NCBI RefSeq assembly: GCF_018389385.1
Contig: NZ_CP062698.1
Location: forward strand, 3,103,501-3,167,500
Direction of reading: 5' to 3'
Source: Anthocerotibacter panamensis C109
GTDB lineage: Bacteria; Cyanobacteriota; Cyanobacteriia; Gloeobacterales; Anthocerotibacteraceae
Length of the DNA: 64,000 bases
The notes under the pieces are model-generated. The model saw only the letters and a program-made list of their open reading frames with translations, was not told the DNA's origin and searched no databases. The translations under genes and the position numbers were made by a program. Positions 2,584 through 33,121 of this stretch are shown one piece after another (position 1 is the stretch's first letter; every line of letters begins with the position of its first letter).

Positions 2584-3288
2584 ATGCAGACACTTCCCCT
2601 TGAGCAGCAAATTACCTTCAAAGGGTCCGCCGAAGGACTGCGCCTATTGCTGCCGCCCGTCACGCCGTGGGAGGAAGTGATGCAACAGTTGCAGCAACGC
2701 CTTGATGCTGGGGAACGCCTGTGGAGCGGGGGAGTTCGGGTCACGTTGGAGTGTCAGGACCGACTGGTGGACGCGCCCCAATTGGAGCAAATCGCCCAAC
2801 TCCTGGCAACCCAACAGCTCACCTTGCTCAAAGTCATCACCACCCGCCGTCAAACTGCTGTTGCTGCCGCTGTCGCTGGATTGAGCGTGGACCAGGAAGC
2901 AGCCAAGGAGTCCCCTAAAAGCGCCTGGTTCGAACCGCTCTACTTGCAACAAACGGTGCGCTCCGGCGTCAAAGTCAGCCATCCCGGAACCGTAATTGTT
3001 GTAGGTGATGTCAATCCTGGAGCTGAAATTCTCGCCCATGGGGATATCCTGGTGTGGGGGAAGTTGCGCGGCTTGGCTCATGCTGGAGTGGCTGGGAATG
3101 AACGGGCGCTGATCTTTTCGCTGCATCTGGCTCCCACGCAGCTACGGATCGCGGAGTATCTTGCTCGTGCCCCTGAAGGCCCCTCCCCCGACCTGCCCGA
3201 GGTCGCCTATGTCCGCGAAGAAAGTATTCACATTGCCCTGGCAGTAGATCTCAGGGCAGCTCAAGGTCAACGGAGAAAAAGTCTATGA
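2584..3288 (+). CDS. minC: Septum-site determining protein MinC
   Basis: MinC is the FtsZ-antagonist of the Min system, recruited to the membrane by MinD. The 234-residue product has an N-terminal domain (about 1-105) joined by a short linker to the C-terminal beta-helix MinC_C domain (about 118-225). The latter is visible as QQTVRSGVKVSHPGTVIVVGDVNPGAEI, with the GDILVWGKLRGLAHAG segment that binds MinD (quoted in pieces). The gene overlaps minD by four bases (ATGA), so the two are translationally coupled. Order minC-minD-minE is the usual cyanobacterial one. Confidence 0.95.
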   Translation: MQTLPLEQQITFKGSAEGLRLLLPPVTPWEEVMQQLQQRLDAGERLWSGGVRVTLECQDRLVDAPQLEQIAQLLATQQLTLLKVITTRRQTAVAAAVAGLSVDQEAAKESPKSAWFEPLYLQQTVRSGVKVSHPGTVIVVGDVNPGAEILAHGDILVWGKLRGLAHAGVAGNERALIFSLHLAPTQLRIAEYLARAPEGPSPDLPEVAYVREESIHIALAVDLRAAQGQRRKSL

Positions 3289-4097
3289 GTGAGTCGGGTA
3301 AGGTTTTGGTCATCACCTCTGGCAAAGGGGGCGTCGGCAAAACTACCACCACTGCCAATCTCGGTATGGCGCTCGCCGCCCAAGGTCACTCGGTTGCTTT
3401 AGTGGACGCGGATTTTGGTCTGCGTAACCTAGACCTGCTATTGGGGTTGGAGAATCGCATTGTCTACAACATCTTGGACGTCCTCAGCGGGGACTGCCGT
3501 CTGGAACAAGCTCTAGTCCGCGATAAACGCCAGAATAGGCTTGCTTTGCTCCCTGCTGCGCAGACCCGCGATAAAAACGCGATTACCCCCGACCAGACGC
3601 GGGAGATCACCGCCCAACTAGCAGAGAATTTCCAATATGTCTTGGTCGATTGTCCGGCGGGGATCGAGCAGGGCTTCCGCAATGCTATCAGTGGCGCTCA
3701 TCGGGCTGTTGTCGTCACCACCCCGGAAGTCTCGGCGGTCCGGGACGCCGACCGGGTAATTGGTCTGTTGGAGGCAGCGGGGCTCAAGGAGACAGAACTC
3801 ATCATCAATCGCCTGCGCCCACAGATGGTCAAGGAAAACAACATGATGTCTGTAGAGGACGTGCTGGAGATCCTCGCCATCAAACTCCTAGGGGTGGTGC
3901 CCGAAGATGAGAAAGTCATCGTGACTACCAACCGTGGCGAGCCCATTGTTCTGGGTGAAACCCTCTCGCCCGCTGGACAGGCGTATGTAAATATTGCCCG
4001 CAGAATTCAAGGTGTATCTGTACCCCTGATGGATCTAGAAGGCCCCGCGCCCAATTTTCTAGAACGCCTGCGTAACCTCTTTGGGAGGAAAAATTAG
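3285..4097 (+). CDS. minD: Septum-site determining ATPase MinD
   Basis: MinD is a membrane-cycling ParA/MinD-type ATPase that positions MinC. The 270-residue protein has the deviant Walker A KGGVGKTTTT at residues 14-23, the switch I region DADFGLRNLDLLLG, and the DCPAGIEQGF Walker B-like segment. The C-terminal region holds the expected amphipathic membrane-targeting helix, seen as NFLERLRNLFGRKN. It starts inside the last codons of minC and ends five bases before minE. The sequence is close to family consensus throughout. Confidence 0.97.
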   Translation: MSESGKVLVITSGKGGVGKTTTTANLGMALAAQGHSVALVDADFGLRNLDLLLGLENRIVYNILDVLSGDCRLEQALVRDKRQNRLALLPAAQTRDKNAITPDQTREITAQLAENFQYVLVDCPAGIEQGFRNAISGAHRAVVVTTPEVSAVRDADRVIGLLEAAGLKETELIINRLRPQMVKENNMMSVEDVLEILAIKLLGVVPEDEKVIVTTNRGEPIVLGETLSPAGQAYVNIARRIQGVSVPLMDLEGPAPNFLERLRNLFGRKN

Positions 4098-29327: not shown

Positions 29328-29705
29328 ATGCAGAAAGCTACCTCGTTCGTAACGATGGGTCTGGTAGGGATTTTGGGTATGGCGCTCCTGTTGCCGGGGG
29401 CTAGTCTGGCTCAGCTTCAGGACGGTGGGAGCGCACCCGGTCAGTTCAGTGGCGGCGAGCGGGGTCAAGACGGCGGGCGGGGTCGGGATGGTGGGCGGGG
29501 CGGTCAGTTTATGCGGACGCTCAAAGGGCTCAATCTCTCAAGCGACCAAAAAGCTCAAGTCCGTCAAATGATGGAAGCGTTCCGGGCAAGTGGTAAAGGT
29601 GACCCCTCAGCCCGCCAAAAATTACGCAGCGATATCGAGTCTATCCTCACTCCCGAGCAGCGCAATCAACTGCGTCAAAACCAGCAAGGGGGGCCTCTGC
29701 GCTAG
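29328..29705 (+). CDS. Spy/CpxP-like periplasmic protein with LTxxQ motif
   Basis: From ATG 29328 the product has 125 residues: a signal peptide (MQKATSFVTMGLVGILGMAL, cleaved near SLA), a Gly/Asp/Arg-rich linker with GRDGGRG, then a helical Spy-like domain (about 65-122) ending in ILTPEQRNQLRQNQQ. Spy and CpxP are ATP-independent periplasmic chaperones or sensors. The helical domain is closely similar to residues 25-85 of the serine hydrolase fusion at 31823. The frame opens far upstream inside ccsA, but that part is not coding. Confidence 0.75.
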   Translation: MQKATSFVTMGLVGILGMALLLPGASLAQLQDGGSAPGQFSGGERGQDGGRGRDGGRGGQFMRTLKGLNLSSDQKAQVRQMMEAFRASGKGDPSARQKLRSDIESILTPEQRNQLRQNQQGGPLR

Positions 29706-29763: not shown

Positions 29764-29805
29764 GAATATACTCCCAGAGAATATGGGTATAGTGTGGAGA
29801 TATTC
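29764..29805. promoter_or_regulatory. Candidate operator upstream of the XRE-TPR gene
   Basis: GAATATACTCC (29764-29774) and GGAGATATTC (29796-29805) form an imperfect inverted repeat, with a third GAATAT at 29779-29784 between them. It ends 20 bases before the regulator's ATG. HTH regulators of this type often bind such sites next to their own gene; binding here is inferred. Confidence 0.4.
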
Positions 29806-29825
29806 CAGGCATACAGGCACGACTC

Positions 29826-31226
29826 ATGGCGAAACTCAGGCTGGTGTGGGAAGACTGCTCTCCTTTGGGGCAGTACGTGTTTAATTTCATGACAGCACAA
29901 CAGCTCTCGCTCAATCAAGTGGCTGCCCGGTGCGGAATCTCGATCAAGGGACTCAAAAACAATATGTTGCCGGGAGCTAACCCGGAGTCCAAAACCCTGG
30001 AGCGCATAGCAAACGGGCTGGGTGTTCCTGTAAACATGCTGTACCAGATCTGGCTCCAGGGCCAGAAAGTTCCTCAGCTTCAGCTAGAGACCAAAGAAGC
30101 GAGCGCTCCAAAGCAAAGTGCCCAAGCCACCCTAAACGTAACAGACTCTGTGGTAGCCCCGTTCGATCTCCAGCTCAACCCCGATGAGGCTAAAATCCTC
30201 ATCCACGACCTGCTAGACCGGGGCAAAGCATTATTAGACCTGCATCAGTTCGAGCCTGCCCGCCTAGAACTCCTCCAAGCCTTCGAACTGGCTCAGGACA
30301 GGGATATGCTCTTGGAGCAGTGCAGGGCGCTGCACTATTTGGGGAACTGCGCGTACTATCTGTGCACCCACATAGATGGCCTGGATCACAGCTTTCAGTA
30401 TTACCAACGCATGCTGAAGCTGACCGAGGCGTTGGGGAGGAAAAACCTGAAACAGGCCCGCGAACAGAAGGCGGCTGCCTTGGCAAATTTAGGGAGTGTA
30501 TTTCTGCGTCAGGTCAACTTTGAAGCAGCCGTGGATGCCTACGACCGGGCTATTATCCTGGCGCAGGAAGATTTTCCGCTGTGCAAGTGGTTGGCTCTAT
30601 TTGGCAAAGGGGGGATCGCCCTGACGCGATGCCACTGGCAAACCGCGATAGAAGCCTATCAGCTTGCAAACACTACGCTCCAGGTGAGTACGGCTAAAGC
30701 CCTACCCCTATGGAACAACCTCGCCTATGCTCTGACCAAGAATGGTAACTATGACGAAGCTGAGGCATGGCTGTTGCGGGTATTGAGAATGGCAAGAAAA
30801 GATGACCTCGAAAACAGATCGATTGCCCTGTATAAATTGGGCTACAACGAGGAGTGCCGAGGCCGTGTCAAGGCTGCCTACCATTACTACCAGCAAGCCC
30901 TGGGCGTCAAGGAAGTTCCTGAAGCCAGAGTGGGGATGGCTTGGTTAACTGCACCCTCAGACCCCAAGTTGGGCCAGTACATGGCTCTGCATGGCCTATC
31001 TCTACTGCTGGAGCGGGCCGCCACTCCCCATTGGGACCTTACTGAGGAATGGATAAAACTGTTGAAACTTTTAGGGCAGGCCGCTCTAGAAGGCGCACAA
31101 TCCTGGATTGCCTTCATCAATCGAGTCTTCCCTATGCAGGAAACCTTCTGGGAACCTCAAGAACGCCGACTGCTTCTAGGTACTGTAGAAGAAGTTATCC
31201 GAACTAGGGATTCTGTGGTGCATTAG
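29826..31226 (+). CDS. XRE-type HTH regulator with C-terminal TPR domain
   Basis: A 466-residue cytosolic protein. An N-terminal Cro/C1-type HTH lies at about residues 15-75 (LSLNQVAARCGISIKGLKNN and KTLERIANGLGVPVNMLYQI). A Q/K-rich linker leads to a TPR array at about 115-400, seen in LANLGSVFLRQVNFEAAVDAYDRAIILA and WNNLAYALTKNGNYDEAEAWLLR (each quoted in part). The HTH-TPR layout is that of peptide-responsive regulators (RNPP group: PlcR, Rgg, PrgX), but TPR regulators with other ligands exist. The last 23 bases overlap the end of a convergent gene for a small secreted repeat protein. Confidence 0.8.
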   Translation: MAKLRLVWEDCSPLGQYVFNFMTAQQLSLNQVAARCGISIKGLKNNMLPGANPESKTLERIANGLGVPVNMLYQIWLQGQKVPQLQLETKEASAPKQSAQATLNVTDSVVAPFDLQLNPDEAKILIHDLLDRGKALLDLHQFEPARLELLQAFELAQDRDMLLEQCRALHYLGNCAYYLCTHIDGLDHSFQYYQRMLKLTEALGRKNLKQAREQKAAALANLGSVFLRQVNFEAAVDAYDRAIILAQEDFPLCKWLALFGKGGIALTRCHWQTAIEAYQLANTTLQVSTAKALPLWNNLAYALTKNGNYDEAEAWLLRVLRMARKDDLENRSIALYKLGYNEECRGRVKAAYHYYQQALGVKEVPEARVGMAWLTAPSDPKLGQYMALHGLSLLLERAATPHWDLTEEWIKLLKLLGQAALEGAQSWIAFINRVFPMQETFWEPQERRLLLGTVEEVIRTRDSVVH

Positions 31227-31590
31227 GCGGGAGTTGCTGTTTATTCGATACATTGGGCGGGAGTTGCTGTTTTGCAGGGCTCACTGGTGCATTGGGCGGG
31301 AGTTGCTGTTTATTCGTCTCATTAGCCGCGTAGGTGGCGCAGAAGGTATTCCAGGCACGCATGTAGCCGGTAAAGTCACCATCGATAAAGTCGCCATGGT
31401 CCACCCAGTAAGCACAGACTTCGGGGATTATAGACTGTGTGCAGGTGGCGTACTCTTCAGCATGGTCTAGAGCGTTCAGGTTCGGATTGGTACAAATCAA
31501 AGTAGCTGCGGTAGAAGGGGGGGTGAAATAGTCAGCCAACGCCACGGGAGTTATGGAGGTCAGGGCCAAGGTGAGAAGGAGGAATTTCAT
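31204..31590 (-). CDS. Small secreted Cys-containing protein with C-terminal KQQLPPN repeats
   Basis: A 128-residue protein with a clear signal peptide (residues 1-19, cleavage after ALA). The mature part has four cysteines (33, 50, 59, 84), enough for two disulfides, in a compact domain up to about residue 90. The tail then carries NKQQLPPNAP (93-102), KQQLPPN (107-113) and NKQQLPPNAP (116-125). At the DNA level the three copies are nearly identical. Repeated short peptides at the end of a small exported protein resemble multi-copy pheromone precursors; a structural Pro/Gln tail is the plain alternative. I do not recognise the family. Its end overlaps the XRE-TPR gene by 23 bases. Confidence 0.7.
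   Translation of the reverse strand: MKFLLLTLALTSITPVALADYFTPPSTAATLICTNPNLNALDHAEEYATCTQSIIPEVCAYWVDHGDFIDGDFTGYMRAWNTFCATYAANETNKQQLPPNAPVSPAKQQLPPNVSNKQQLPPNAPQNP
31216..31314. repeat. Three near-identical short direct repeats encoding (N)KQQLPPN(AP)
   Basis: Copies lie at 31216-31245, 31249-31272 and 31285-31314. On the plus strand they share ggcgggagttgctgttt. The first differs from the others at 31225 (A instead of G), and this base makes the TAG stop of the XRE-TPR gene. Spacers are 3 and 12 bases, so this is a coding repeat and not a CRISPR array. Confidence 0.85.
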
Positions 31591-31822: not shown

Positions 31823-33121
31823 ATGACTTCTTTCCCGCCCAACGTAGCTATAGGCCAGGATGTAGAAAATACGAGCTTCCGGGGGGGACAAATGCGGTTG
31901 CTCAAGACCCTGGACCTCAGCCCTGAGCAAGAGAGCCAGATCCGAGCACTGGTGGACGCCTACCGCGAGAACAACCGGGGGGACAGAGGAGCCCGCCAAA
32001 AACTGATCAGTGACGTGGATATGCTCCTGACGCCTGAGCAACGCCTACAGATGCGCCGCAACCAAGAAGACCCCCGTCCGACACGCTCTGAACCATCCCA
32101 TCCCTTTGCCCACGCGACCGCCACTGCTGAGGCGCAGGAGCGCTACGAATTAGCCGCGCACTATTCACAGGAGCAAGAAGGGCTATCGCTCTTGATTCTG
32201 CACCAGGGCAGGATTGTTTTCGAAGAATACGATTCCAGTGCGGAGGAAGCCTATGTTCTAGCCAGTGGTACCAAGAGCTTTTGGGGCGTGCTTGCCGCCG
32301 CCGCCGTCGCGGATGGCCTCCTGGACTGGGAGGAGCGGGTGGCTGAGACGCTTACAGAATGGCGCGATGACCCCCTCAAATCTCGCATCACCGTGCGCCA
32401 GGTTTTAAATTTCACCGATGGTTTGGACCCCGCTGACCAGGACCTAGACGGCCCTACGCTCAAAAACAAGTATCAGTATGCTGTGGACCTCCAGGCAGTG
32501 GCTGAACCGGGGACGACGTTCTGCTATGGTCCGAGCCACCTCTATGTCTTCGGGGAGCTGATGCGGCGCAAACTTGCCGCCGACCCCTTGGAGTACCTGG
32601 AGCAGCGGGTCTTCGCCCCCATCGATCTGCGGGTGTCAGACTGGCGACGCGATGGTGCAGGCAATCCGCTGATGCCCGCCGGGGCGAGCCTCACCGCCCG
32701 AGAGTGGGCCAAGTTTGGGGAGTTGGTGCGCCAAGGCGGTAGCTGGCAGGGCCGGACGGTCATTGCATCGGACGCTTTGCAGTCCTGTTTTGTCGGCAGT
32801 GCGGTCAATCCTGCCTATGGGTTGACCTTCTGGCTCAATGTGGCGGTACCCGAGGGAACTTTTAGTACAGAGGTGACAGAAGGTGAGGGGCGCAATCCCT
32901 GGCGGCGAGGAGGCAGCTCCGGCTCGATCTACCTGGGTGCCCCGGAGGACTTGGTGATGGCTGCGGGGGCGGGCAAGCAACGCTTGTACATCATGCCCTC
33001 GCTGGAGTTAGTCGTTGTCCGGCAAGGGAACCGAGCGAGCAAGTTTCGAGAAGAAGGGACCAAGTTCCGCGACGATGAATTTCTGGCCCTGCTGCTTAAG
33101 GGTGAGCCCCTCACCGGGTAA
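31823..33121 (+). CDS. Fusion of a Spy-like LTxxQ domain and a serine beta-lactamase-type hydrolase
   Basis: The 432-residue protein starts at ATG 31823; an in-frame stop at 31808 rules out a longer form, and AAGGTGAG is a likely ribosome site. Residues about 25-85 form a Spy-like helical domain (LKTLDLSPEQESQIRAL, MLLTPEQRLQMRRNQ). Residues about 115-425 are a class C-like hydrolase. Its SxxK nucleophile is in ASGTKSFWG, the YxN/S-like element is CYGPSHLYVFGELM, and the KTG-like strand is RRGGSSGS. No signal peptide is visible, which is odd for both domain types. It could be cytosolic or have lost its leader. Confidence 0.82.
   Translation: MTSFPPNVAIGQDVENTSFRGGQMRLLKTLDLSPEQESQIRALVDAYRENNRGDRGARQKLISDVDMLLTPEQRLQMRRNQEDPRPTRSEPSHPFAHATATAEAQERYELAAHYSQEQEGLSLLILHQGRIVFEEYDSSAEEAYVLASGTKSFWGVLAAAAVADGLLDWEERVAETLTEWRDDPLKSRITVRQVLNFTDGLDPADQDLDGPTLKNKYQYAVDLQAVAEPGTTFCYGPSHLYVFGELMRRKLAADPLEYLEQRVFAPIDLRVSDWRRDGAGNPLMPAGASLTAREWAKFGELVRQGGSWQGRTVIASDALQSCFVGSAVNPAYGLTFWLNVAVPEGTFSTEVTEGEGRNPWRRGGSSGSIYLGAPEDLVMAAGAGKQRLYIMPSLELVVVRQGNRASKFREEGTKFRDDEFLALLLKGEPLTG

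Follow-up and report, generated by a model that had tools for sequence, protein, structure and literature searches.

Seven convergent pairs of TPR regulators and small exported four-Cys proteins suggest a home-grown family of peptide-signalling circuits in Anthocerotibacter

Results

Gene layout at the locus

The window, the whole 64,000-nucleotide stretch of DNA analysed here, carries a gene for an HTH-TPR regulator and, on the opposite strand, a gene for a small exported protein, which are convergent and overlap tail-to-tail by 23 bp (Table 1). The first-pass annotation had described such a regulator beside a secreted protein with three KQQLPPN repeats, had noted that the two genes overlap and converge, and had ascribed a signal peptide and a four-Cys domain to the partner. 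Indeed, both open reading frames, the overlap and both features of the small protein were found. The promoter that it had placed at 29764-29825 gained no support from a consensus scan, which detected 0 sigma-70-like sites there, a result that neither proves nor excludes a promoter. Upstream of the small gene, the intergenic region likewise yielded no promoter consensus, and scanning for promoters and terminators was uninformative overall. LTXXQ (Spy/CpxP-like) genes lie on both sides of the pair (31823-33121 and 29328-29705), and one of the two also encodes a fused serine hydrolase domain of the beta-lactamase type; no close homologue of this LTXXQ/beta-lactamase gene was found in Candidatus Cyanaurora for an empty-site comparison of the window locus.

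Table 1 Features of the regulator/small-protein locus in the window
Feature	Position	Strand	Basis or remark
HTH-TPR regulator (proposed cytoplasmic peptide receptor)	29826..31226	+	466 aa; ORF, Pfam TPR families, paralogues
N-terminal XRE-type helix-turn-helix, residues 13-78	29862..30059	+	HTH_19 match, L019 similarity, model
TPR superhelix, residues 119-396 (proposed peptide-binding groove)	30180..31013	+	pLDDT, Foldseek
C-terminal helical region of regulator	31041..31202	+	W427, W442, R447 invariant
Small exported four-Cys protein (proposed peptide precursor)	31204..31590	-	128 aa; ORF, family copies
Sec-type signal peptide, residues 1-19 (ALA↓D)	31534..31590	-	sequence, by eye
Four-Cys domain, residues 33-84 (Cys 33, 50, 59, 84)	31339..31494	-	Cys spacing
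KQQLPPN repeat 1	31291..31311	-	sequence
KQQLPPN repeat 2	31252..31272	-	sequence
KQQLPPN repeat 3	31222..31242	-	sequence; end overlaps regulator stop codon (31224-31226)
Intergenic region between small gene and divergent LTXXQ/beta-lactamase gene	31591..31822		gene order; possible two-way promoter

The small protein and its repeats

The small protein begins with a Sec-type leader whose end was placed by eye, followed by four Cys in the mature part. Leaders with a plausible signal-peptidase site are also present in the other eight members of its family, so that the predicted export of the small proteins is well supported. The members are 95-128 aa long, seven of the nine exceeding 100 aa, and the Cys spacing (15/17-9-21/25) is conserved in all nine, while the four-Cys domain found no match in Pfam, NCBIfam or PHROG.

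The three KQQLPPN copies are exact and are spaced 13 and then 10 codons in reading order; when the mature small protein was shuffled 200,000 times, a 7-mer occurring even twice was seen in only 3 shuffles. At the DNA level, the cores of copies 1 and 2 do not differ, and that of copy 3 departs from them by one synonymous base, indicating that the multiplication is recent, and the repetition alone therefore says little about selection.

The regulator family and its predicted fold

Pfam searches of the window regulator returned TPR_12 (4e-11), TPR_2 (2e-9) and other TPR families, together with a weak match for the XRE-type HTH (HTH_19, E 0.014), which forms five helices with a pLDDT of about 80 in the predicted structure. 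A LexA/S24-like protein (L019:1030-1773) is 44% identical to this HTH, hinting that the DNA-binding part of the window regulator may have been acquired by domain shuffling.

Nine paralogues with a common TPR/C-terminal region are encoded in the same genome and one more in Candidatus Cyanaurora. W427, W442 and R447 (window numbering) are invariant across the 11 family members, and matches of the regulator profile outside the family end near position 360-390, ahead of the C-terminal helical region. The N-terminus is swapped or lost between copies. An XRE HTH is present in two of the regulators paired with small genes (p1 and p4; labels below) and, by alignment, also in those of p2 and p3 and in the unpaired L014; the p6 regulator (L016) is phage-repressor-like according to PHROG matches, the N-terminal domain of the p5 regulator (L013) was recognised in none of the domain searches, and the domain is absent from the p7 regulator (L015) and the Cyanaurora regulator. 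As the N-terminus varies and the TPR region is kept, the sensor-like part is the constant one.

AlphaFold2 prediction of the window regulator from its single sequence was unusable (pLDDT 46.8), whereas addition of the Cyanaurora relative, giving a two-sequence alignment, raised the mean pLDDT to 75.3, with values mostly of 80-95 in the TPR region. The best natural Foldseek matches of this model were the TPR domains of LGN/Pins (TM-score <=0.5 by query), a type of superhelix of the class that binds extended peptides; the predicted receptor would thus be an LGN/Pins-like TPR superhelix, and its modelled fold fits peptide binding. None of the 50 top-ranking folds in the list was an RRNPP/RRNPPA structure, and in profile searches RapF/RapJ scored 37-38 bits compared with about 79 bits for LGN. 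The fold and profile results together therefore give no kinship to RRNPP.

Seven convergent pairs in one genome

The genome that contains the window (4,187,797 bp, a single contig) encodes seven small proteins of the family, every one of them convergent with a regulator paralogue. This seven-fold convergent paralogy includes five pairs whose genes overlap and two with gaps of 79 and 129 bp. The pairs were labelled p1 (window), p2 (L002), p3 (L003), p4 (L004), p5 (L005/L013), p6 (L006/L016) and p7 (L007/L015); three further regulators (L014, L017 and L018) have no small partner. Identity between the TPR parts of the paralogues is mostly no more than 25-30%, which means that the pairing has persisted while the regulators diverged considerably.

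Pairs p2 and p3 arose by a recent 4.6-kb inverted duplication (83% identical) that carries an effector gene, the small gene, the regulator and a gene for a 176-aa protein. Between the two copies, the small proteins are 90% identical overall and 91% in the four-Cys domain, compared with 65% for the regulators, indicating that the four-Cys domain is itself constrained and is more than a carrier. Of the ten replacements, three affect the three codons that precede the conserved LPPPPGD, inside the overlap with the regulator gene, a cluster that is suggestive only. Across all seven pairs, the distances between small proteins correlated with those between regulators (Mantel r = 0.66, P = 0.003), whereas removal of p3 as the recent duplicate left r = 0.45 and P = 0.11. 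The co-variation of ligand and receptor by which the first-pass annotation proposed to check its idea is therefore not significant beyond one recent duplication.

Genes next to the pairs

Besides the window pair, the small gene has a divergent neighbour at p2-p5 and p7. At p2, p3 and p4 the order is the same, with a divergent effector gene, the small gene, the convergent regulator and the divergent gene for the 176-aa protein. The effector-like family has a common Pro-rich leader that occurs at about 16 places genome-wide (L050:7921-8769, L051:7071-8513 and others); the p2 and p3 effectors contain an ADP-ribosyltransferase domain, and an eCIS_core gene lies near p4. Two of the six independent pairs are situated ~0.6 kb from injection-system-type effector genes that are divergent from the small gene; for two of six within <=1.2 kb, a distance picked after seeing the data, random placement gives P = 0.0017. 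The 176-aa family has no database match, and each of its four copies in the genome (L051:10739-11269; G000:C1:3374016, 1140066 and 2300970) lies upstream of an HTH-TPR regulator gene of the family described here and points away from it. Pairs p1, p5, p6 and p7 lack both the effector and the 176-aa gene, yet have the same convergent pair order, and the other neighbours differ between most loci.

The only protease or importer genes linked to the pairs are a Dpp/Opp-type ATPase pair near p7, consisting of two oligopeptide-type ABC transporter ATPase genes at a distance of 3-4 kb (L055:3818-5909). The genome also encodes two SBP_bac_5 proteins (OppA class, oligopeptide-binding), which show no tie to the tail peptides.

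Distribution and the Cyanaurora relatives

A survey of 390 cyanobacterial genomes gave convincing matches of the small protein in the window genome and in Candidatus Cyanaurora alone, and outside its family the regulator profile gave generic TPR matches only. In the GTDB contig collection, a first scan with the small protein yielded nothing, and the regulator matched Cyanaurora itself and one ordinary TPR protein. Viral contigs, plasmids and phages contained no family member; Calothrix plasmids had similarity to the HTH only. The only relatives found therefore belong to the Gloeobacterales, namely the window genome and Candidatus Cyanaurora vandensis; Anthocerotibacter and Cyanaurora are grouped in the Anthocerotibacteraceae of this order (PMC13237429).

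Cyanaurora encodes a single regulator with no small gene beside it and two small genes (C92 and C209) on other contigs that lack a regulator, so that the small genes are all linked to a regulator in the window genome and none is in Cyanaurora. Conservation of the pair was the support that the first-pass annotation sought, and a repeat protein missing beside orthologous regulators was the observation that it held to speak against its proposal. The former comes out clearly in the window genome, 7/7 of whose small genes stand beside a regulator, and fails in Cyanaurora, a result that in part agrees with the latter.

Pro-rich tails of the small proteins

All nine small proteins end in a Pro-rich C-terminal tail (17-29% Pro, compared with 6-11% in the domain). 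A motif drawn by eye after seeing the sequences, [K/R/N]-x-x-x-P-P, is matched by KQQLPPN (x3, window), KGILPPPPGD, RVLLPPPPGD, RGFNPPPGE, NALLPPPPTK and KASNPPLPLQSKP, and also by the Cyanaurora tail KVSSPPPG, which occurs once in C92 and twice in C209. The p5 tail, GIIPIPNGIVPVPPSK, is no more than a loose fit to the motif and resembles a double copy that has degenerated. Tail duplication is thus seen in the window protein (x3), in Cyanaurora C209 (x2) and, in degenerate form, at p5.

As a DNA pattern, KVSSPPPG is present at three places in Cyanaurora, all in the two small genes, and is absent from the window genome. The two Cyanaurora proteins have 13 of 64 aligned domain residues in common (~20%) compared with 8/8 in the tail, and all six substitutions between the KVSSPPPG copies are synonymous (rough P about 5e-4; 24 bases in one draft genome). 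The Cyanaurora tail therefore shows a signature of purifying selection, and we regard these findings as the best evidence for a probable function of the tail unit itself. That the tails are a by-product of antisense overlap was rejected, because the window repeats are almost wholly outside the overlap and the Cyanaurora tails overlap no regulator.

Discussion

We propose that the window pair belongs to a sensor module that is specific to the Anthocerotibacteraceae, exists in seven parallel copies in this genome and works in an RRNPP-like way, a tentative reading that we place a little below an even chance and that we judge the most likely of those considered. In this module, the small precursor would be exported via Sec, its four-Cys domain would fold outside the cytoplasm, and the Pro-rich C-terminal unit, present in three KQQLPPN copies in the window protein, would be released. 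The tail peptide, for which KQQLPPN, KQQLPPNAP and NKQQLPPNAPQNP are candidate forms in the window, would then re-enter the cytoplasm and bind the groove of its cognate TPR regulator, altering the action of the N-terminal domain, which would be DNA binding in most copies and, in the one that lacks an HTH, presumably contact with another protein. Several points weigh against this reading: for cell-to-cell signalling the peptide must cross two membranes each way, the receptor and precursors are unlinked in Cyanaurora, the four-Cys domain is more than a carrier, no protease or importer other than the ATPase genes near p7 is linked to the pairs, and the congruence between the two families is not significant without the p2/p3 duplicate.

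Cytoplasmic TPR-receptor peptide signalling is described as a trait of Firmicutes (PMC10075063, PMC9765709), and the RRNPP/RRNPPA systems (Rap-Phr, NprR-NprX, PlcR-PapR, Rgg-SHP and AimR-AimP) are those of Firmicutes and their phages. The window pair resembles them in several respects: its 466-aa regulator agrees with the receptor criterion of 250-500 aa with tetratricopeptide repeats (PMC10075063), an HTH is present in most copies and absent from one, as in PlcR/NprR versus Rap, and a gene for a small exported protein with a candidate C-terminal peptide, sometimes repeated, is adjacent at all seven loci of the window genome, though not in Cyanaurora (PMC10075063, PMC11343458, PMC9765709). The tail duplication also parallels the repeated mature peptides of Phr precursors (PMC11343458, PMC9765709). 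In contrast, the precursors are 95-128 aa long with a conserved four-Cys domain, compared with validated propeptides of 21-50 aa and a detector limit of 10-100 aa (PMC10075063); the tail is Pro-rich, the genes are always convergent when linked, the TPR region of the window regulator shows no greater similarity to RRNPP than to TPR proteins in general, and the host is a Gram-negative cyanobacterium rather than a Firmicute or one of its plasmids or phages. The reading in the first-pass annotation is supported in part, but not the membership of the RNPP group that it suggested, and the pair is not classed as RRNPP, since propeptide length, receptor homology above that to other TPRs and a Firmicutes host are three defining features that it lacks. 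By fold and profile, the receptor is most similar to LGN/Pins and consensus TPRs and resembles the TPR domains that bind extended peptides, such as those of LGN/Pins, kinesin light chain and SycD/LcrH chaperones, although these have no HTH and no such pairing with a gene for an exported protein.

Two other explanations are serious rivals. The regulator might simply control the small gene, whose product would act in the envelope or in competition between bacteria and be anchored or extended by its Pro-rich tail; the regulator would then sense something else, and the repeats would have arisen by slippage in a flexible tail. The near-identity of the window repeats in DNA is what recent slippage would give, the genes are unlinked in Cyanaurora, and the placement of two of the six independent pairs near injection-system-type effectors (with the distance picked post hoc) would suit a competition protein. 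However, the convergent pairing is kept in all seven cases whereas other neighbours differ between most loci, and the KVSSPPPG copies have changed only synonymously, so we consider this explanation unlikely.

Alternatively, the regulator may bind the small protein itself, or its unexported precursor, via the Pro-rich tail and report export or abundance in the producing cell, with no pheromone involved. TPR grooves of SycD/LcrH-type chaperones bind Pro-rich segments of secreted proteins, and a regulator of this kind would resemble such TPR chaperones holding secreted proteins; the LcrH_SycD model matches of the window regulator are weak and reflect generic TPR similarity. The strong constraint on the four-Cys domain and the C-terminal, probably exposed position of the tail also agree with binding of the whole protein. 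This explanation, which we rate as quite unlikely, leaves the multiplication of the repeated tail unit unexplained, as well as the identical octapeptide in two diverged Cyanaurora proteins, unless both serve one receptor. Finally, a hitch-hiking duplication unit of an effector locus, in which the members of the pair are not directly connected in function, would account for the contents of the p2/p3 duplication and is very improbable, given that p1, p5, p6 and p7 keep the convergent pair without the effector or 176-aa gene.

Returning to the RRNPP-like module, its p2, p3 and p4 copies resemble polymorphic-toxin and extracellular contractile injection loci in lying beside effectors with a common leader, p4 also being near an eCIS_core gene. 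Effectors of this kind are missing beside the window pair and three more, which argues that the pair is not simply part of an injection system. A bolder form of the proposal, in which an RRNPP-like system originated independently in deep-branching Gram-negative cyanobacteria, with seven channels, four-Cys/Pro-rich-tail precursors and genes for injection-system effectors connected to two or more channels that are independent of each other, is doubtful at present. If true, it would mean that the logic of TPR-receptor peptide signalling evolves more than once and can work across a double membrane, here in a thylakoid-less cyanobacterium. Even if the peptide reading fails, the two genes stand for two lineage-specific protein families that multiply as a pair and seem not to have been described before. 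One of the regulators without a small partner, L014 (L014:1477-2838), is convergent with a gene at 2841-3458 whose product looks, by eye, like a VanX-like D-Ala-D-Ala dipeptidase.
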